NCBI GenBank assembly: GCA_023205875.1
Contig: CP060763.1
Span: 1 to 64,000 of the forward strand
Direction of reading: 5' to 3'
Length of the DNA: 64,000 bases
Origin: Chloropicon primus
Lineage: Eukaryota; Chlorophyta; Chloropicophyceae; Chloropicales; Chloropicaceae
Within the stretch, counting starts at the first letter, position 1. Every line of letters starts with the position of its first letter. This document shows, piece by piece, positions 37,493 to 48,035 of this stretch. The position numbers and the translations under genes were made by a program. The notes beneath the pieces are model-generated. The model had not been told where the DNA came from, did no database searches, and saw only the letters and a program-made list of their open reading frames with translations.

Positions 37493-37673
37493 ATGGGCAC
37501 GGGCGCTAGTGTGGAAGCTGGAGGAGCAGAAAGGGGTGGAGAGAGGAAGCCGGCCAAGAGAGGCCAAGGTGCACCCATCACCCTCAGCCCGGATGCCTCT
37601 GGAACCAAGGATGCAAGTGCTAGGACTCGGGCCCTGGATCGGGTCTCGTCGAAAATTCTCTTCGGGTTCAACA

Positions 37674-37711
<38 letters not shown>

Positions 37712-40700
37712 CAGAGTCGTGAGAAGGAGGTGGGGAAGGAGGAGGCCAGCAGCAGAGGGCCTGTGAAGCTGGACAGGGGGTTATCTTTGGATCGAAAATT
37801 GATGCTGGATATGCGCACGGCACCCGCAAACTCGTTTGTCTCCGCAAGAGGCAGCTCTAAACCAGTATCGCACGAGGACAAGGGGAAGCGTCTCAAGGAC
37901 ATCGGCATGACAGGGCGTGATCACGGTCAGACCGGTCCAACCCTTCGGGCAAACCGTGGATCCGGAGCCCCTTCATCGTCCTTCTCAGCAAGCACGAGTG
38001 CGAGACCTTGTCCCATCGACAAGAGGAGTGGAAGTGAGGATGCAAACGCTGGAGTCCTGCATGCTTTGGAGACTTGCGTCAGGCAATCTCGCTTGCTTCT
38101 GTTCTCCACGCACAAGAGCAAGGACAAGGACCACTGCAAGGGTGTTGTGCAATGCATCCAAGACACGGAGCGGGCGCTCGAGGACTACGAACTCGGCGGC
38201 ACGACGGGTCGGCGGCGCAGGGAGAGGTGGAGGGAGCGAGAAGTCCACGCACTCTGCGATGCCATCAAGTTGCACGTTTTGGCAAGATTGTGGGAAAAGG
38301 TTTACAGCGGCCTCAAGAGGAGCGACGAGGACTCGATCAAGGGTTCCCTCGCGAGTGGGATCTTGGACCTCCTCGAATCCAACTTGTCCGTGGCGACTGG
38401 GAAGGCGTTCACCCAGTGGAGCGTCGTCCCGGTGCAGAAGTACATCAGGCAGCTGAGGGATGCGATGAGGCTGGAGGACGCGTGCGGCGCCGGGGGGAGG
38501 ACTGGCGGCAGAGGGGGCCAAGGCCACGGCCGGCATGGCCACGCCAGCTTCCTCGAAGAAGAAACGGAGATCCAGAGAGCCCTGGAACTTTTCAATTTCA
38601 ACATCGAGAACGATCTTGAGCAGCACCGAAAGGCGGAAGCTTCCTCGTCTTCCTGGGAGGAGTCAGCGAAGCATTCTGTGCTTTGGTCCTCGGTGGTGGA
38701 ACGGCGACTGAATGCGTTGGCAAAAGCTGCAGAGAAAGAAGTCGTGTCCCTGAGGCTGGAGGACGGCCTCAAGAAGCTGTTGGCAAGGGGAGACCGCAGC
38801 AAGAGCGACCTGGTCATGGAGATGGGGGGCGGCGAGGATGGTAACGGCCAGGATCAAAGGTCCCGCAAGCAGGAGCAGGGCCTCTCGTTGAAGGAGCTTC
38901 AAGTCTTGCTGAGGAGGGGAGAGGAGCTTCTGTCGTCCTTCGCCATCGAGAACCAATCGAGCAGGAGATCCTCCCGCTTGAGATCCCTCCTCGCTGTCGG
39001 GGAGGCGCTCCTCAAGTGCAGGTGCGCCCTGGAGCGCCGCGGTCTTCGATCCAAGTTCGAGTGGCCTGGGTACTGGCTTGGTGACGATGTGGACCACTTC
39101 CGCGCCCTCCGTAAAGCGGAGGACGTGATGAGAGACGCCATGTGGTCGCTGTTGGGATTGCCGGACGCCAGCAAGCGGGCCTTGCTGGAGTGCGGTAGGC
39201 AGGTATACCAGACTGTGCACGAGAAGTACGAGGTTCACCTCCGTTGGGATCTCGAAAAGCTGGAGCAGGACCTGGGGGAGTTGAGGGAGGACGGTGTGTT
39301 CGGGTTTGACGAGTACAGGAGCAAGAACTTGCGCTTGAAGTTTGTGGACTCGAGCGCGATTGTGATTCAGACGGCCTTCAGGGCCTACCGGGCTCGGAGA
39401 GATGTCACCCAAGCGTTGGAGGTGCAAAGGGAGAGGTTGAGAAAGATTAAGGACGACGAGGGGGCCGCCATCGTGATCCAGAGGCACGCCAGGCAGATGC
39501 TCTCCAAGAAGAGGGCCGAAGCGATGCGGCTCAGCGCTGAGGAGGAGGACAGGGCTTCGATCAAAAGGTTCACGACCATGTCGCCCTCCAGGCTGCTGAA
39601 AGCTCTTCTGGAAGAGATGGGCCAGAAGGACCCAGAAGAATCCGGGGTTGGGGAGAAGGGGAAGGGCAAGGAGTGGAGGACGAGGAACACGCCCTTCGAG
39701 CTCGCCAGATTGGTCATAAAGTCTTCCCCCACGTCTGAAATCTGCAGAGCGTTCGAGCAGGTGCCTCGGCGGTGCTGGGATCACTGTGCGCTCCTTCTGG
39801 ACGGAGCCCCAGCTTCCCTGTCGGTGGCTGTGCTGAACGGGATCACCAAGAAGACCTTTGCGGTGGAGGTCCTGATGACCTTGCCGGTGCAGACCCAAGC
39901 CAACGTCCTGGCAGAAATGAGAATCGGTTGGAGGGAGGAGATCTACACCGCGCTGGAGGACACGGATGTGGTGGACCTCGCCTCAGCCTTCACCCATATC
40001 GAAGAGAACCACAACTTGAGCATACACATGCTGGAGCGGTGCCACGTCCTGGGACGGCTGGAAGACGTGGGGGAGTGCTTTGCCAAGAGGGGAACCGGAC
40101 CGGCCACCATCGCGAAGCTCGTCGAGTACCTCAAGCCGTTTTCCATCCTGCAATTCACCTTGGGGATCAAAAGAGGGATCAGCGAGGCCTTGGAAGGCGA
40201 GGACGGGGACAAGGAAAATGAGATCCTTGAGGAGATGTTCTCGAGGTGCTCGAAATCTTGCCTGATGCTGGTGAACACGCTGGTGGCTTTCCATGTGAAG
40301 CACGGCCCGAAGATATTCACGGTCGAGCACAACCCGGACGTCGAAGCGTTTGACTACACGAGGGGGCTGAACATCCTCCTGCACGGACTCAGGTGCAACG
40401 GGCACATTGAGCACGCGCTTGCGGGATTGAACCAGCTCCTCGAGTCGGGCGAGGAGATCAGAATGGATGCCAGCTTTCATCGCCAGGCGATCTCTTTCTT
40501 GGTGAAGCAGATGGTGTACACCGTGCCCCTCGACAGCGTGGGACTCTTGATCAACTGGATCTCGAAACACCACACCGTGGATGTCTCGACGATCCTGCAC
40601 GCGATCTCCTCGGACTATCCTGACTTCTGCTCCTCGGTCTTGCAGCATTCTGACCTCGTTGTGGTCTCCAAAGGCCTCGTCAGCGCAATGAAGCCCTCGT

Positions 40701-40831
40701 TCGCGTGCCTCCTCCTGTTGCAGTTGAGCTCCAAGGACAGGGCGACCTCGGAGCAATTCCTTGAGTCCTTGGTCGAGGTCTCCCCCGAGTTTGCAAAGCA
40801 AGTCAGCGAGAACATCGCGAGTGCGAGGTGA
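37493..40831 (+). CDS. IQ-motif (calmodulin-binding) helical-repeat protein, 1112 aa
   Basis: Intronless. It starts MGTGASVE, with Gly2 and Ser6, which fits an N-myristoylation signal. A (GACGAG)n run encodes the acidic DEDEDEDEDED stretch near residue 65. Two IQ motifs are visible: AIVIQTAFRAYRARRD (about 622) and AAIVIQRHARQMLSKKRA (about 658). The last ~400 residues are leucine-rich helices (HEAT-like spacing). It is probably a Ca2+/calmodulin-regulated, membrane- or cytoskeleton-linked scaffold; I do not recognise the family. Its last 63 codons and 3' flank are copied at 43727-43953. The 10-mer TTGTATAATA lies 62 bp past the stop. Confidence 0.85.
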
Positions 40832-41054
40832 GCCTCCCGAGGCCCTCAAAAGATGTCCTGAAATCGAAACCAAAGGCACGGGGCCTTCATGGGTTGTATA
40901 ATAAAAGTAATTCAGGGAGATATCCACCAAAAAGGCCAAAAGACACGAACCTTCCCTTGTCCTTGTTCTTGTCCTTGTCCTCCTCCTCGTCACCACCGGT
41001 GGCATCCCATCACCCCTCCTCCATCATCCCTGCCATGGATTGCGGATAAATTCT

Positions 41055-41392
41055 GTGCTGTGGTTCCGTGGCTAACGGATGAGGCCCGAGAAAAATTAAC
41101 AGTCCTTGAAGGTCCTCCACTCCCAACGTCGATCGTCGTTTCCATTGACCAAAGCACTCATCTTTTTCGAACCCAGGACAGGAGGAGGTCCCCTCCCTAT
41201 CCTCGTCTCTCTCCTTGCCCAACTCCCGTCCCTGTCTCTCCTCCCGAGGCCTCTCCTCTCCTCTCCTCTCCTCTGCCCGGGCGTTAACTCTCGGATTGCC
41301 AAGATTTTTCGAGGAGAATTCCCGAGTGCTGTGGTTAATTCCGTGGCTAACGGATGAGGCCCGAGAGAATTAACGCCCGGGCAGAGGAGAGG
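41055..41392. repeat. Inverted and direct repeats between the IQ and curlin-like genes
   Basis: A 46-49 bp block (gtgctgtggtt, optional aatt, ccgtggctaacggatgaggc, then cccgagaxaattaac) occurs at 41055-41100 and 41326-41374. An inverted repeat has arms 41265-41294 and 41361-41392, about 30 bp and matching except for a 2-base gap, with a 66-bp loop. The second block is also bounded by TTAATTC (41336) and GAATTAA. The structure resembles a small foldback or MITE-type insertion. Confidence 0.8.
41171..41280. repeat. Pyrimidine-rich repeat, copy A (partner at 43591-43690)
   Basis: The order aggacaggagg, ccctcc, cctcgtct, tggccaac/tgcccaac, cccgtccc, gtctctcc, cccgaggcc, tctcctctcc is shared with 43591-43690 in the same orientation, with several differences and short gaps. 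The two copies bracket the curlin-like gene. Confidence 0.65.
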
Positions 41393-41666
41393 GGAGGAGG
41401 GGAGGAGGGCGACCACCAGAGGGAGAGGGAGGGGACGAGGGGACGAGAACGCGTCCACGACAACGCAACGAAACGACACGACGCGCAGGAAGGGAACCCC
41501 TCCGTCGAAAGCGCTTTTTCTCTTCGTGAAGGGAAACGGAACGGAACGGAGAGGAGGGAGCGAGGGAAGGGCGGCGAGGACGAAGAGAAGAAGCGACGCG
41601 AGCAGAAGGCGCTCGGTGGTTGACCGCTGCGGAGCCGAACAACAACAACAACTGAAAAAATAAAAA

Positions 41667-43409
41667 ATGAAAAAGAACGTCGAGTGGTTGTGCGTTTGGC
41701 TGGCCGTAGTGGTGGTGGTGGTGGCCGCCACGCCTGTGTACGGCCAGAGGTGGGGGAGGCCCCACAGCTACGGAAGGTCCAAGGCGAGCACCGTTGGGAG
41801 CAGCGGTATTGGCATCGTGAGCGAAACAAGCAAGGCGGAAGTCGACGGCAGCGGCACCTTCATGGCCTCCGCTGAGGCCGACGCCGGAGACACCAAAGCA
41901 AAGGTCATGGCGATGACCACCGATGGCGCTGCTCAAGGCAGCAGCACCGCCTCCATGAGTGGTGCGGGTGAGATGGTCATGACCGAGGTTTCTGGTGACG
42001 GAATGTTGACGGGCGAAGCAAAAGGTTCGTCGTCCACCGCAAGTGCTACGGCTGACGGCGGGGACGACAATGACCTCCGCGCTTCGGCTGTCGGCTCGGG
42101 GAACACCGTTTCTGCTTTTTCTGATGGTGCTGACATGAATCGTGTTGAAGCCGTGGCTCATGGTGATGACAATAAAGTGGAGGCTAGTGCTTCCCTTGGT
42201 GCTACCATGAATCGTGTTTACGCAGTGGCTCGTGGCGAGGGCAACACAGTGTTTGCCCAAGCTTCTAAGACTGCTACCATGAATGATGTTGATGCCGTGG
42301 CTCGTGGTGATGGCAATACAGTGATTGCACTTGCTTTCTTTGGTGTTGACATGAATGACGTTGATGCTGTGGCTCGTGGTGAGGGCAACAGCGTGAGGGT
42401 TACTGCTGAGTTTGAAGCTAACATGAATCACATTGATGCCGCGGCTCGTGGTGACGGCAATACAGTGACTGCTACTGCTGCTGGCGAAGCTGACATGAAT
42501 CACATTGATGCCGTGGCTCGTGGTGATGGCAATACAGTGACTGCTACTGCTGCTGGCGAAGCTAACATGAATCACATTGATGCCGTGGCTCGCGGTGATG
42601 GCAATACAGTGACTGCTACTGCTGAAGCTGTAGCTGACATGAATCACATTGGTGCCGTGGCTCGTGGTGATGAAAACACAGTGGCGGCTGAAGCTTATTT
42701 GAATGCTAACATGAATGATGTTGGTGCCGTGGCTCGCGGTGATGACAACAACCTAGTAAGGGCTGACGCTTCTCAGAATGCTACCATGAATGATGTTGAT
42801 GCCGTGGCTGACGGTAATGGCAACACAGTGACTGCTGCAGCTTTTTTGGATGCTACCATGAATGATGTTGATGCCGTGGCTCGCGGTGATAACAACAAAG
42901 TGAGGGCTTCAGCTTATTCTAATGCTGACATGAATGAATTTGGTGCCGTGGCTCGTGGTGAGGGCAACACGGTGAAGGCTTCATCTTATGAGAATGTTGT
43001 CGACAATCGTGTTGAGGCACAGGCCGAGGGAAACCGCAACGACGTGACCGCCGAGACCGAGGAATCTGATCGCAACAGGCTCAGCGCCATGGCACGCGGA
43101 AACCGCAACGACGTGACCGTCAAGGCCAAGAAATCTGATCGCAACAGGCTCCGCGCCATGGCTCGCGGAAACCGCAACAACGCGACCGTCGAGACCGAGG
43201 AATCTGATCGCAACAGGATCAGCGCCATGGCTCGCGGAAACCGCAACGACGTGACCGTCAAGGCCAAGAAATCTGATCGCAACAGGCTCCGCGCCATGGC
43301 TCGCGGAAACCGCAACGTTGTGACCGTCAAGGCCAAGAAAGCGGAAGGCGTGGTCAGGCCGGTCCTTGTTCGTGGTAATGGCAGGTCGAAGACAGTTGAC
43401 GTGCCTTAA
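41667..43409 (+). CDS. Secreted curlin-like / beta-solenoid tandem-repeat protein, 580 aa
   Basis: A signal peptide (WLCVWLAVVVVVVAATPVYG, cut before Q) is followed by a Gly/Ser/Ala-rich ~120-residue region. Then come 12 tandem 24-residue units beginning at MN codons 42135, 42207, 42279, 42351, 42423, 42495, 42567, 42639, 42711, 42786, 42858 and 42930, and about five 23-residue units spaced exactly 69 bp (43068, 43137, 43206, 43275). The consensus N-x-V-x-A-x-A-x-G-x-x-N-x-V-x-A-x-A alternates inward-facing residues with Gly/Asn turns, as in bacterial curlin repeats and beta-solenoids. Seven units contain RGD and three RGE. The 24-residue part uses A/T-ending codons, unlike neighbouring genes; the 23-residue part is GC-rich. 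Family unknown; likely role surface fibre, matrix or adhesin (inference). Confidence 0.85.
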   Translation: MKKNVEWLCVWLAVVVVVVAATPVYGQRWGRPHSYGRSKASTVGSSGIGIVSETSKAEVDGSGTFMASAEADAGDTKAKVMAMTTDGAAQGSSTASMSGAGEMVMTEVSGDGMLTGEAKGSSSTASATADGGDDNDLRASAVGSGNTVSAFSDGADMNRVEAVAHGDDNKVEASASLGATMNRVYAVARGEGNTVFAQASKTATMNDVDAVARGDGNTVIALAFFGVDMNDVDAVARGEGNSVRVTAEFEANMNHIDAAARGDGNTVTATAAGEADMNHIDAVARGDGNTVTATAAGEANMNHIDAVARGDGNTVTATAEAVADMNHIGAVARGDENTVAAEAYLNANMNDVGAVARGDDNNLVRADASQNATMNDVDAVADGNGNTVTAAAFLDATMNDVDAVARGDNNKVRASAYSNADMNEFGAVARGEGNTVKASSYENVVDNRVEAQAEGNRNDVTAETEESDRNRLSAMARGNRNDVTVKAKKSDRNRLRAMARGNRNNATVETEESDRNRISAMARGNRNDVTVKAKKSDRNRLRAMARGNRNVVTVKAKKAEGVVRPVLVRGNGRSKTVDVP

Positions 43410-43590
43410 TTCAAAGAAACCGTGGATCAAGTGTTTGGGGCTTTAGCAACGACCACTGGTCCTGCTTCGAGCCTCCCAAGATTCCTCCTTTGTTCCTTTT
43501 CAAGATCTAAAAGTACACAAAAAACGTTGTCCTTTTTATGCTTTCAGCTCCTGCCGGATCTTTCGAAACCGGGGTAGGAATCTCCTCAAC

Positions 43591-43690
43591 AGGACAGGAC
43601 AGGAGGTTCCCTCCACCTCCTTGTCCCTCGTCTTGGCCAACCCCCGTCCCCGTCTCTCCCGAGGCCTTCTTCAAGCCTCTCCTCTCCCCC
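43591..43690. repeat. Pyrimidine-rich repeat, copy A' (partner at 41171-41280)
   Basis: Same orientation and order of blocks as 41171-41280. It directly precedes the copied IQ-gene tail at 43727. Confidence 0.65.
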
Positions 43691-43726: not shown

Positions 43727-43953
43727 CTTCTGCTCCTCGGTCTTGCAGCATTCTGACCTCGTTGTGGTCTCCAAAGGCCTCGTCAGCGCAATGAAGCCCT
43801 CGTTCGCGTGCCTCCTCCTGTTGCAGTTGAGCTCCAAGGACAGGGCGACCTCGGAGCAATTCCTCGAGTCCTTGGTCGAGGTCGCCCCCGAGTTTGCAAA
43901 ACAAGTCAGCGAGAACATCGCGAGTGCGAGGTGAGCCTCCCGAGGCCCTCAAA
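43727..43953 (+). pseudogene. Copied 3' end of the IQ-protein gene
   Basis: 227 bp matching 40624-40850 with three differences seen by eye (98.7% identity). It includes the last 63 codons, the stop and about 19 bp of 3' flank. One change is Ser to Ala and two are silent. It lacks the rest of the gene and a promoter of its own, so it is a gene fragment. It ends 34 bp before the stop of the convergent lipase gene. The high identity implies either a recent copy or gene conversion. Confidence 0.92.
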
Positions 43954-43986: not shown

Positions 43987-46533
43987 TTATTCTTGCTGTT
44001 CTTTAGAAGAGTAGGCGTCGTTGAGCGCGTCTTGCCCGGCGTCAGCAAGCTTCTCCAGAGATCTTTGCTTCTGCGCGATGTCCCTCAGAGCGTTCTGGAG
44101 ATTCTCATCCGCGTGGGTCCAGTGTTGTATCGCCTTTGTCTTCATCCTCGCCCTCTTCCAGGCCCTCTTTGCATTCAACCTTTCCTTGACACATTTCTTA
44201 ACCGTCTTGAGATCCTTCTGGCGGAGCACGTGCACCTCGTCCCTCTGGCCCGCCGTCTCCATGCTGGAGAACCACCTTCCAATGGCCATGGAGGCGTCCT
44301 CCAGCCTGCCCACCATCTCAATGCTGACTGGAGGTATGTTGAGCCTGGACAGGATCGTCGAAAGTCTGCTCCTCCGTCTCACCTTGGCCCAGCGCACGCT
44401 CGCGTTCGCTCGCCTCACCTTGATGGCTTCCTGCAGGGTGGATAGCGAGTGCAGGTAGGACCTGGGCATGTGGTGGATGAGCATCCCAACCGAGAAGAGG
44501 AGCCACCCAAAGTACTCCGGCTTACTGATCTCCAAATCGTAGTACTTCAAGGGATTGCTCGAGTACGAGCGCTTGGCGTTGGTGCCGAATTCGATCTGGT
44601 ACACGACCGATGGCGGGTAAAGCTTGTCGTGGTGCGCGGCCATGAGGAATTTTCGTGCAGCCTTCCTCACCGCCTTGTCCCTCCTGTCTCTGCTCGTTGC
44701 CTCCACGACCACGCTCGAGAAACTGGTCATCAGCCGATCCCTCCTGGAGAGGGCCTTGCCCAACCCGAGAGGGGAGGCCTCCTCGCTGTCACTGTCGAAA
44801 GTGACACTGTCGTGCACCCTTGAGGAGGGGCTCCTTGGAGCGTCAGAAATTTTAGTGAAGAGAGATGGCAGCCTCCTCAAGCTGCCGGTCTCGTCCATTG
44901 AAATGTCCCTCATCGACCTCACCGGTTCATCTCCTCCTCGCAAGAGGGTGATGTTCTTCTTCAGGTGCTCGGGGCACTCGGGCAAGAAGCCTTTGGCCCT
45001 GAACACCCTTTTCAGGAAAAGCTGGAGCTTGGCAGCATAGCCAAAGCCCCCAATGAAGAGCGAAACCGCCAGGATGACAATGCAGTTGACGACCCACTGC
45101 AAAAAGCTCTGCCTGCTCCTCCAGGAGTAGACCACGGCACTGAAGAAACCATCCTTCTTGGAGTTGAAGAACTCCCACAAGGTGTCTGCCATGGCAGTCA
45201 GATCGAGGATCGACCCGTGGCTCAACCTGGGGACGTTGTCATCACCCGCGGAGAAGGCCTGCATGAAACTCAGTGGAGGGGAGAATTCATCGGACTTCAA
45301 TTTGCTCTTCCTCGTCAGCTCGTCAAAGTAGGTGGGAACCTTGCGAGCCAAGTTGAGGGACAGCACACCAGGGCACCCAAAGCACCAGCACTCGATCGGC
45401 AGGTCCGGGTGCTTCTCCTTGAGAAGAATGGCGAAAAGTGAGGCGACGCCCGCTCCGAGAGAGTGACCCACGATCCAGATCCTGTGAGAGGGGTACACGG
45501 CATTTGCGGCCAGGATGACGTCCTCGAGGACCGACATCGCCATCCTAGCCCCCTTTGCCATGGCAATGTGCGCGAAGCCCTGCTCCCCCCCGATCCAGAA
45601 CGGCTCGGGGTGGCAGTTCACGTCCGTAATGGCCTCGCTGAGGGAGAAGGTGCCCCTGAAGGCCACCACAAGCGAGTTGTTCTCGTGATCGATCACCAGG
45701 AAGTGGTTGGGAAGCTTGCCGAAGGTGAGATCAGATGAGGTGAAGTTGGAGTACAGGATGTCCTCGGGGTTGACCCCTTCCACGATCGACATGATCGTCG
45801 CCTGCCCCCTCAGGTCCGCCTGCAGACGGGCATCGATCCTGTCTTCCCTCTCCCCTTGGTCCATCTCAGGGTCTCCGCCCTCCTCGCTGGCCTCCCTCAG
45901 GGTCAGCGACAGCGAGGCTCCGCCCGTTGACGCCCGAGAGAGGCTGCCATCCCTGGAGGACTCGCGGGAGGACAGCAGGTCCGAGGATGCCGAAGCGGGG
46001 GCATCTTCTGGCGTTACGGGCGTTCGCGCCGACCTCGGGGTTGGGATTCCCTTCCAGTCCGGCTGGGCCGTTGGCATGAAGTTCAAGTTGAAGATGGACG
46101 CCATGTGGTTCAGCATGCTCCAGCCGTACGCCGCCGCGCTGAACTTCATCGCTCTGCTCGCGCAGTCCACGATCCACTCCTCGTCCGCGGCATTCGGTAT
46201 CCTCTGCAGCGTCCTGCTCCCGTGGACCTGCTCCGAGGAGCCGTAGGCCGCCATCATCAGGATCCCGAACACGTCCTGGCTCACGCTCCTTCCATTGATA
46301 GCAAAGTGGTCGGTGAAGAGACCGAAGAAGTCCTTCATGGCAGCCCACTGCTCGGCATCCCTGAACAAGTCGAGAACGCTCCTGGCGTAGTCGTACACGT
46401 AAACCCGGTACAACCCGAGGAAGAAGGCCACAACCGGAAGCCTCTTTCTCATCCCCACATGCTTCTCGGGCGGCGCCTTGCCCTCCCCTTGGTCCTCCTC
46501 CACCTCAAGCCTCTCGGGCCTCCTCCTCCTCAT
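43987..46533 (-). CDS. Class-3 lipase (sn1-diacylglycerol-lipase-like)
   Basis: 848 residues from the first in-frame ATG (46533); the longer frame begins with GTG. The alpha/beta-hydrolase core has the class-3 lipase elbow VGHSLGAGVAS with nucleophile Ser358, preceded by NNSLVVAFRGTFSLSEAITD (oxyanion side), and followed by CFGCPGVLSLNLA and the Asp-bearing FSAGDDNVPRLSH. A hydrophobic span lies near residue 490 (VVNCIVILAVSLFIGGFGYA), and long basic regions follow. The C-terminus has a helical charged tail. Size and layout resemble DAG lipases that release 2-acylglycerol from DAG. It is convergent with the copied IQ-gene tail. A (GGCGT)n run lies just before the ATG. Confidence 0.9.
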   Translation of the reverse strand: MRRRRPERLEVEEDQGEGKAPPEKHVGMRKRLPVVAFFLGLYRVYVYDYARSVLDLFRDAEQWAAMKDFFGLFTDHFAINGRSVSQDVFGILMMAAYGSSEQVHGSRTLQRIPNAADEEWIVDCASRAMKFSAAAYGWSMLNHMASIFNLNFMPTAQPDWKGIPTPRSARTPVTPEDAPASASSDLLSSRESSRDGSLSRASTGGASLSLTLREASEEGGDPEMDQGEREDRIDARLQADLRGQATIMSIVEGVNPEDILYSNFTSSDLTFGKLPNHFLVIDHENNSLVVAFRGTFSLSEAITDVNCHPEPFWIGGEQGFAHIAMAKGARMAMSVLEDVILAANAVYPSHRIWIVGHSLGAGVASLFAILLKEKHPDLPIECWCFGCPGVLSLNLARKVPTYFDELTRKSKLKSDEFSPPLSFMQAFSAGDDNVPRLSHGSILDLTAMADTLWEFFNSKKDGFFSAVVYSWRSRQSFLQWVVNCIVILAVSLFIGGFGYAAKLQLFLKRVFRAKGFLPECPEHLKKNITLLRGGDEPVRSMRDISMDETGSLRRLPSLFTKISDAPRSPSSRVHDSVTFDSDSEEASPLGLGKALSRRDRLMTSFSSVVVEATSRDRRDKAVRKAARKFLMAAHHDKLYPPSVVYQIEFGTNAKRSYSSNPLKYYDLEISKPEYFGWLLFSVGMLIHHMPRSYLHSLSTLQEAIKVRRANASVRWAKVRRRSRLSTILSRLNIPPVSIEMVGRLEDASMAIGRWFSSMETAGQRDEVHVLRQKDLKTVKKCVKERLNAKRAWKRARMKTKAIQHWTHADENLQNALRDIAQKQRSLEKLADAGQDALNDAYSSKEQQE

Positions 46534-46576
46534 CACGCCACGCCACGCCACGCCGCGACCGCCAAAAGGGTCAAGT

Positions 46577-46904: not shown

Positions 46905-48035
46905 AGGTCATCCTCCTCCAGTGATGATGCTGGTCTCTCTTGATGGACACACTGGACAACAATGAAGGACAAAGGAGTCCTCCCGATGGTTGGTTCATTC
47001 CTTCCTGCTCCTCCAGTGATGATGCTGGTCTCTCTTGATGGACACACTGGACAACAATGAAGGACAAAGGAGTCCTCCCGATGGTTGGTTCATTCCTTCC
47101 TGCTCCTCCAGTGATGATGCTGGTCTCTCTTGATGGACACACTGGACAACAATGAAGGACAGTCATCCCGATGGTTGGTTCATTCCTTCCTGCTCCTCCA
47201 GTGATGATGCTGGTCTCTCTTGATGGACACACTGGACAACAATGAAGGACAAAGGAGTCCTCCCGATGGTTGGTTCATTCCTTCCTGCTCCTCCAGTGAT
47301 GATGCTGGTCTCTCTTGATGGACACACTGGACAACAATGAAGGACAAAGGAGTCCTCCCGATGGTTGGTTCATTCCTTCCTGCTCCTCCAGTGATGATGC
47401 TGGTCTCTCTTGATGGACACACTGGACAACAGTGAGTCCTCCCGATGGTTGGTTCATTCCTTCCTGCTCCTCCAGTGATGATGCTGGTCTCTCTTGATGG
47501 ACACACTGGACAACAATGAAGGACAAAGGAGTCCTCCCGATGGTTGGTTCATTCCTTCCTGCTCCTCCAGTGATGATGCTGGTCTCTCTTGATGGACACA
47601 CTGGACAACAATGAAGGACAAGGTTGGTGCTCCTCCAGTGATGATGCTGGTCTCTCTTGATGGACACACTGGACAACAATGAAGGACAACGAGGAGTATG
47701 AAGGAGGGAGGAGGGTGTCTGGATGATGCTGGTCTCTCTTGATGGACACACTGGACAACAATGAAGGACAAAGGAGTCCTCCCGATGGTTGGTTCATTCC
47801 TTCCTGCTCCTCCAGTGATGATGGTCTCTTGATGGACACACTGGACAACAATGAAGGACAAAGGAGTCATCCCGATGGTTGGTTCATTCCTTCCTGCTCC
47901 TCCAGTGATGATGCTGGTCTCTCTTGATGGACACACTGGACAACAATGAAGGAATCGAGGGAGTATCCACGAACCTTGGATTCGTTCGGGATGGATGATG
48001 CTGGTCTCTCTTGATGGACACACTGGACAACAATC
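46905..48035. repeat. 95-bp minisatellite, about 13 copies
   Basis: Units starting gatgatgctggtctctctt lie at about 46922, 47017, 47112, 47202, 47297, 47392, 47476, 47571, 47639, 47722, 47815, 47907 and 47995. The common spacing is 95 bp, with deletions giving 90, 84, 68, 83, 93 and 88. The second half of the unit (gtcctcccgatggttggttc) is often lost. The first half (ctggtctctc, ttgatggacacactggacaa) is kept in every copy, with one internal deletion at 47815. Open frames on the minus strand arise only from the repeat. Confidence 0.95.

Follow-up and report, generated by a model that had tools for sequence, protein, structure and literature searches.

The locus and its gene family

An uninterrupted open reading frame of 580 codons, which can be read without an intron, occupies positions 41667-43409 on the forward strand of the window (the first 64,000 nucleotides of contig CP060763.1, assembly GCA_023205875.1, of Chloropicon primus). 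The organism is a marine green alga, coccoid in form and enclosed by a layered cell wall (PMC5656628), and the first-pass annotation, which was made from the letters alone, was thus correct in assigning the DNA to a eukaryotic genome. The encoded protein carries tandem units of the form N-x-V-x-A-x-A-x-G-x-x-N-x-V-x-A-x-A, here called the kernel, each followed by five or six residues. The parts of the gene, its flanks, and a direct repeat around it are located as follows.

41667..43409, + strand: whole gene, 580 amino acids, seen as an open reading frame; six more genomic copies, five of them unbroken
41667..41747, + strand: signal-peptide-like stretch, residues 1-27, from the sequence, with the cleavage site placed by eye; the copies start alike
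41748..42068, + strand: N-terminal part, residues 28-134, with beta-type alternation and without clean kernels; near-identical across copies
42069..43004, + strand: acidic body, residues 135-446, with 13 kernels (one 23-mer, eleven 24-mers, one 25-mer)
43005..43334, + strand: basic tail, residues 447-556, with five kernels in a 23-residue register
43335..43409, + strand: unique C terminus, residues 557-580, and stop codon; a possible cap; the copies end similarly
41100..41666, + strand: 5' flank common to other copies (352-568 aligned bases, 90-97% identity)
43410..43655, + strand: 3' flank, partly common to other copies (at least 135-270 aligned bases, 86-96% identity)
40624..40850, no strand assigned: left copy of a 227-bp direct repeat, being the 3' end of the upstream open reading frame (98.7% identity)
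43727..43953, no strand assigned: right copy of the 227-bp direct repeat (98.7% identity)

Of the 18 kernels of the protein, eleven belong to units of 24 residues, one to a unit of 25, and five to units of 23, and the last merges into the 24-residue unique C terminus; the 107-residue N-terminal part alternates as the array does. At the DNA level, Tandem Repeats Finder independently detected two arrays, one with a 72-nt period (42128-42996, 12.0 copies, score 638) and one with a 69-nt period (43029-43340, score 498). A degenerate nucleotide pattern for the kernel had nine matches in the window and was not matched in any of 100 shuffled versions that preserved dinucleotide composition. The repeat pattern described in the first-pass annotation is therefore real and its five 23-residue units stand, but its twelve 24-residue units are eleven, together with one of 25 residues. 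The seven RGD triplets that it counted are all present, at residues 213, 261, 285, 309, 333, 357, and 406, and its description of the protein as secreted agrees with the signal-peptide-like start, which was judged by eye. No membrane anchor is evident by eye at the C terminus, and Cys is absent from the mature part in all six uninterrupted copies.

The genome searches covered an assembly of 17,584,162 bases in 20 contigs, the genome of strain RCC138 being reported as 17,584,162 bases in 20 chromosomes (PMC12301720). A protein search of this genome showed the gene to be present in seven copies distributed over four chromosomal sites, with one on C10 (the window), two on C8, three on C13, and one on C3. 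Read from the first Met, the six uninterrupted copies encode 580, 1614, 549, 1052, 907, and 897 residues, with 17 to 62 kernels per copy. The middle one of the three tandem C13 copies (L009:4633-8270, minus strand) is frameshifted, two frames overlapping near L009:7200-7245; it is either a pseudogene or the product of an assembly error and was kept as two pieces, both of which contribute to the 230 collected units with lengths of 23 or 24 residues, a set that reduces to 151 distinct sequences (109 24-mers and 42 23-mers). Weak matches on C5, C15, and C14 (E 0.001-0.005) were rejected, kernel repeats being absent from those stretches.

The first 148 codons of the six copies are 0-11 nt apart (mean dN 0.009 and dS 0.015 over 15 pairs, with changes too few for a reading of dN/dS), and the arrays vary in length and content. 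In the corresponding comparison of the 36 C-terminal codons, 5 of the 15 pairs, those with C3, were not colinear. In each of the six uninterrupted copies the body of the array is acidic (charge of -33 to -169) and the tail is basic (+16 to +34); this count leaves out the 3' piece of the frameshifted copy, whose nominal tail has a charge of -16 because a basic-type unit lies early in that piece.

Duplication of the gene also took in the 5' flank and, in part, the 3' flank. Because the window copy is bracketed by the 227-bp direct repeat, the left copy of which is the end of the upstream reading frame, it was probably brought in by an insertion or duplication event in which the end of this neighbor was copied as well. 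Upstream of the C3 copy, at about C3:324326-324681, lies a remnant that is similar to the 3' flank found in other members of the family and may be the trace of a lost tandem neighbor. The open reading frames adjoining the gene in the window encode a 1112-residue protein with an IQ motif (37493-40831, + strand) and an 854-residue protein with a class 3 lipase domain (43987-46551, - strand), and tandem arrays with a unit of ∼90-95 bp are present near the lipase-like gene at 46913-47953. A telomeric AAACCTA array at 1-649 (TTTTAGG on the opposite strand), with a unit within the published range, is followed by a 198-bp repeat at 651-1155, indicating that the window begins at a chromosome end.

Correspondence with the curlin kernel

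The curlin kernel has been formulated as N-$-Psi-$-Psi-$-Q-X-G-X-X-N-$-Psi-$-Psi-$-Q, with about 23 residues per repeat and a second turn of 4-5 residues, the inward-facing residues of each half being N, Psi, Psi, and Q (PMC10192328). Entropy across the 109 distinct algal 24-mers is lowest in nine columns, 1, 3, 5, 7, 9, 12, 14, 16, and 18, which are exactly the inward and turn positions given for curlin in that source; the probability of this agreement arising by chance is about 2e-5, on the assumption that columns are exchangeable and with any circular shift allowed. The agreement is poorer in the 42 distinct 23-mers, whose nine most conserved columns include only six of those of the kernel. 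Codons 5, 9, 12, and 16 of the 24-mers show synonymous variation with almost no amino acid change, and positions 15, 17, and 19-21 vary freely. Charged residues occupy 1 of 981 kernel positions in the 24-mers and 0 of 378 in the 23-mers, as opposed to 669 of 1635 and 314 of 588 positions elsewhere. The algal repeat therefore has the curlin-type strand-turn-strand spacing that the first-pass annotation had recognized, N-$-Psi-$-Psi-$-(Q)-X-G-X-X-N-$-Psi-$-Psi-$-(Q) with about 23 residues per unit. The hydrophobicity pattern of the protein is beta-like (z 3.9) and anti-helical (z -2.5), the beta measure being one that is not outstanding in curlins themselves (z 0.9 for CsgA and -1.4 for a Pseudoalteromonas curlin).

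Gln is found at positions 7 and 18 in none of 302 cells of the distinct units. Position 7 is Ala in 150 of the 151 distinct units; position 18 is Ala in 104 of the 109 24-mers and in 21 of the 42 23-mers, where Thr (15) and Ser (4) also occur, so that the earlier proposal of Ala in place of the curlin Gln holds with this extension at the second site. In other respects, the algal protein resembles curlin (PF07012, CsgA/CsgB), and especially the centrosymmetric class of PMC10192328, in its N1, two inward small or hydrophobic residues, x-G-x-x turn, and N12 spacing, in a unit of about 23 residues with two near-identical halves and variable unit number, and in its signal-peptide-like start and hydrophilic outward face. 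Besides the replacement of Gln by Ala at position 7 and by Ala, Thr, or Ser at position 18, it differs in the order of residues within each half, which is Val then Ala in the alga but mostly Ala then Ile or Val in the bacterial curlin set, in a second turn of 5-6 rather than 4-5 residues, and in a number of kernels that reaches 62, as compared with the 22 repeats reported for CsgA homologues in PMC3521004; in addition, the protein does not match PF07012, and the alga is without CsgG. In the light of the Gln substitutions described below, the algal unit is the curlin kernel in nearly everything except the two glutamines.

Family searches and the effect of introducing glutamine

The curlin-family match that the first-pass annotation had looked forward to did not appear: PF07012, which has a curated cut-off of 20.7 bits, was matched neither by the natural window protein nor anywhere in its own genome at E ≤ 10, and it is missing from the 15 families that a search with eight copies or pieces listed. 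CsgG (PF03783) was also absent from the algal genome at E ≤ 10, the E. coli control genome being positive. No clear match to an unrelated known repeat family was obtained either, since the window protein matches no Pfam-A family at E ≤ 10. Some of the copies match other Pfam families (DrrA1-3_C in one of eight, E 8e-10, and WCX in two of eight, E 9e-5); these matches, sub-threshold in appearance, are probably compositional.

The contribution of the two glutamines to recognition by PF07012 was evaluated by rewriting all 18 kernels in silico with Gln at positions 7 and 18, the latter having been Ser, Thr, or Asp in five of them. The substituted protein matches the family over 13 stretches with 126.3 bits and an E value of 3.9e-37, a value that is easily over-read because 18 similar units sum up. 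Natural references scored 130.5 bits (Pseudoalteromonas CF6-2 curlin), 95.8 bits (E. coli K-12 CsgA), and 62.3 bits (the first curlin-type protein of Aureimonas plasmid pAU20a). The match was absent when Gln was shifted one position earlier, to 6 and 17, and it was also absent in four of four controls in which Gln was kept at 7 and 18 and the remainder was rearranged, with the Psi residues moved outward, N/G/N moved by one, or the other columns shuffled (two shuffles). Gln alone is therefore insufficient for the match, and the algal N-Psi-Psi-G-N scaffold contributes the remainder.

In a tblastn search of plasmids with the window protein, four records were matched at E ≤ 1, of which three are in curli-type loci: in two of them the match is to a csgA gene within a csgE/F/G locus (E 0.3 and 0.5), and in the third it is to a protein adjoining a CsgG-family gene (E 0.04). 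No plasmid was matched by either of two control queries, one reversed and the other column-permuted. The best match is a low-complexity protein from Staphylococcus chromogenes (E 7e-6), and this record outscores the curlins with each of three copies used as query. It leads the five records matched by a C8 copy, which include two curlins (best E 2e-3), and the 11 matched by the C3 copy, none of them a curlin. It was rejected as a relative; the 500 residues inspected form a serine/aspartate-type array from which the kernel is absent, and the match was read as compositional. The region of Aureimonas sp. AU20 plasmid pAU20a from which the above reference was taken (L018:1-5972), where genes labeled hypothetical with curlin-type repeats adjoin a CsgG/HfaB-family gene, is a curli-type locus annotated otherwise.

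When the columns were scored against 116 non-redundant curlin units, the best register was the kernel for the 24-mers and the kernel shifted by one half for the 23-mers, with 106/2000 and 45/2000 column permutations scoring equally high. A profile of two-unit stretches found no convincing relative in 395 and 398 genomes from two bacterial phyla; its five bacterial matches at E 0.002-0.01 are without kernels. The 27 bacterial curlin reading frames collected contain 91 kernels with Q/Q and none with A/A, in a set that is biased because its members were picked by a Gln motif. These weak or mixed tblastn, column-score, profile, and A/A-kernel results do not show homology to bacterial curlin. Other searches gave little: sequence searches of the PDB found nothing credible (best E 0.47 and, for an RNA polymerase subunit, 0.11), phage records were unmatched, and PHROGs at E ≤ 0.01 gave 0, 1, and 0 families for three copies, the one (E 7e-4) being of unknown function. 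Protein-pattern scans confirmed a relative in 0 of 126 stretches from genome contigs and in 0 of 59 and 0 of 33 from viral contigs; three single matches of the kernel pattern in viral contigs, each an isolated kernel in frame, were read as chance.

Predicted structure and possible role

AlphaFold2, run without an alignment on the mature window protein, produced a model with a pLDDT of 84.1 and a pTM of 0.83, in which ten-residue blocks score 83-98 from about mature residue 111 through the remaining 24-mer body. Strands are predicted at positions 2-8 and 13-18, with a turn between them, in 11 of 11 24-mers, the curlin layout with two strands per unit; in the four tail 23-mers examined, the second strand extends to about position 22. 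It should be recognized that AlphaFold2 over-predicts solenoids for repeats (PMC11795689) and that a 214-residue control, translated from a non-coding antisense frame of this DNA and equal in period, was also folded as a solenoid consisting of strands only (pLDDT 78.4, pTM 0.81). The model therefore agrees with the hypothesis but does not discriminate, and it was rejected as proof of the fold; the solenoid anticipated in the first-pass annotation is indeed predicted, in the curlin register, but a solenoid is predicted for the control as well. Foldseek found no match in the PDB at E ≤ 0.001 for the algal model or, among the best 50 of 99 rows, for the control, and the E. coli CsgA fibril (E 4.0) and FapC (E 1.7) appear only among these best 50 of 99 for the control.

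The reading to which we assign the highest weight, with a probability of roughly 0.56, is that the gene encodes a secreted structural protein in which each repeat unit forms one coil of a curlin-type beta-solenoid with two sheets. A cell-surface or wall scaffold, an Ala-core solenoid of curlin architecture, would be the favored role. The protein would enter the secretory pathway by the ordinary route and may be exported to the wall or an outer layer. Each coil would consist of strand a (2-8), the x-G-x-x turn, strand b (13-18), and a second turn of 5 or 6 residues, with N1 and N12 forming amide ladders at the turns, Val3/14 and Ala5/7/16/18 forming a thin Ala-rich core that replaces the Gln ladders of curlin, and charged side chains facing outward. 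The length of the rod may be set by the number of units, and the acidic body and basic tail may mediate end-to-end contacts or binding to acidic wall polymers. That the rods polymerize like curli has roughly one chance in three; amyloid polymerization is possible but unproven because Ala cannot form the hydrogen-bond ladder of Gln and the unique ends could act as caps. The more ambitious proposal of a first eukaryotic curli-type functional amyloid, encoded in multiple copies, exported by the secretory pathway, and forming wall or surface fibers with an alanine zipper in place of Gln ladders, is a tentative and rather unlikely one. As far as the sequence tells, the algal repeat would work like a curlin repeat, one that fails the PF07012 score and the tests for Gln and has no CsgG partner.

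Descent from curlin itself would require that a bacterial gene was acquired, that its glutamines were lost and its array amplified, and that a curli-like amyloid was retained. The identity of the kernels apart from Gln and the presence of curlins among the few tblastn matches of two of the three copies tried are compatible with such a history, but convergence on a simple coil would account for the kernel equally well, and the absence of CsgG from the alga, the profile search of the two bacterial phyla, and the missing A/A kernels in the Gln-biased curlin set make it improbable. We also consider it quite unlikely that the protein is a disordered or elastic Ala/Gly/Asn-rich wall protein for which the solenoid is an artefact of repetition in AlphaFold2. 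Such over-calling is known (PMC11795689) and was seen with the antisense frame; nevertheless, the strict alternation, uncharged inward columns, invariant N/G turns, and free outward columns argue against disorder.

Two further proposals were rejected. Because RGD is present in 118 of 230 units and the array differs between copies from 17 to 62 kernels, the protein might be a fast-evolving cell-surface adhesin in which RGD loops bind receptors and the array is a spacer of variable length, the first-pass annotation having raised the possibility of a solenoid adhesin. However, the frequency of RGD is explained by column composition (68 observed versus 65.6 expected from the columns of the 109 distinct 24-mers), RGN (47) and RGE (34) substitute freely for it, and its G is the turn Gly of the kernel, so that an adhesive function for the triplet is very unlikely. 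An ice-binding solenoid, acting through an outward Thr ladder on strand b, can be given almost no credence: Thr is at position 13 in 74 of the 109 distinct 24-mers, and some units contain NTVTATA, but it is at position 15 in 36 and at position 17 in 17, columns that are among the more variable, and a regular ladder is absent.

The favored reading, a secreted solenoid of curlin architecture, can be set beside other repeat proteins of cell surfaces. The literature consulted (PMC3521004) places curlin repeats in bacteria and, in a single case, in an archaeon; that archaeal protein and large Shewanella adhesins are reported to carry curlin-like repeats without belonging to curli operons. The algal family resembles these in having curlin-type repeats outside a curli operon, but they are prokaryotic and were found with curli models that contain Gln, and the comparison is one of descriptions only. 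An amyloid or amyloid-like nature has been described for two other surface proteins, FapC and the Methanospirillum sheath protein (PMC12392863, PMC10593813), which serve here as structural analogues only. Searches of the open-licence literature found neither eukaryotic curlin-type repeats nor this algal family described.

The algal family raises the question of which residues make the curlin architecture, and models keyed to Gln are blind to a class of the Ala type. If the family does form a eukaryotic curli-type amyloid, the Gln ladders, which have been the search key for curlin repeats, would be dispensable for the architecture, and searches keyed to Gln would miss such families. The Chloropicophyceae are described as key members of the marine phytoplankton, and the family offers a concrete candidate for a protein scaffold in their layered cell wall.
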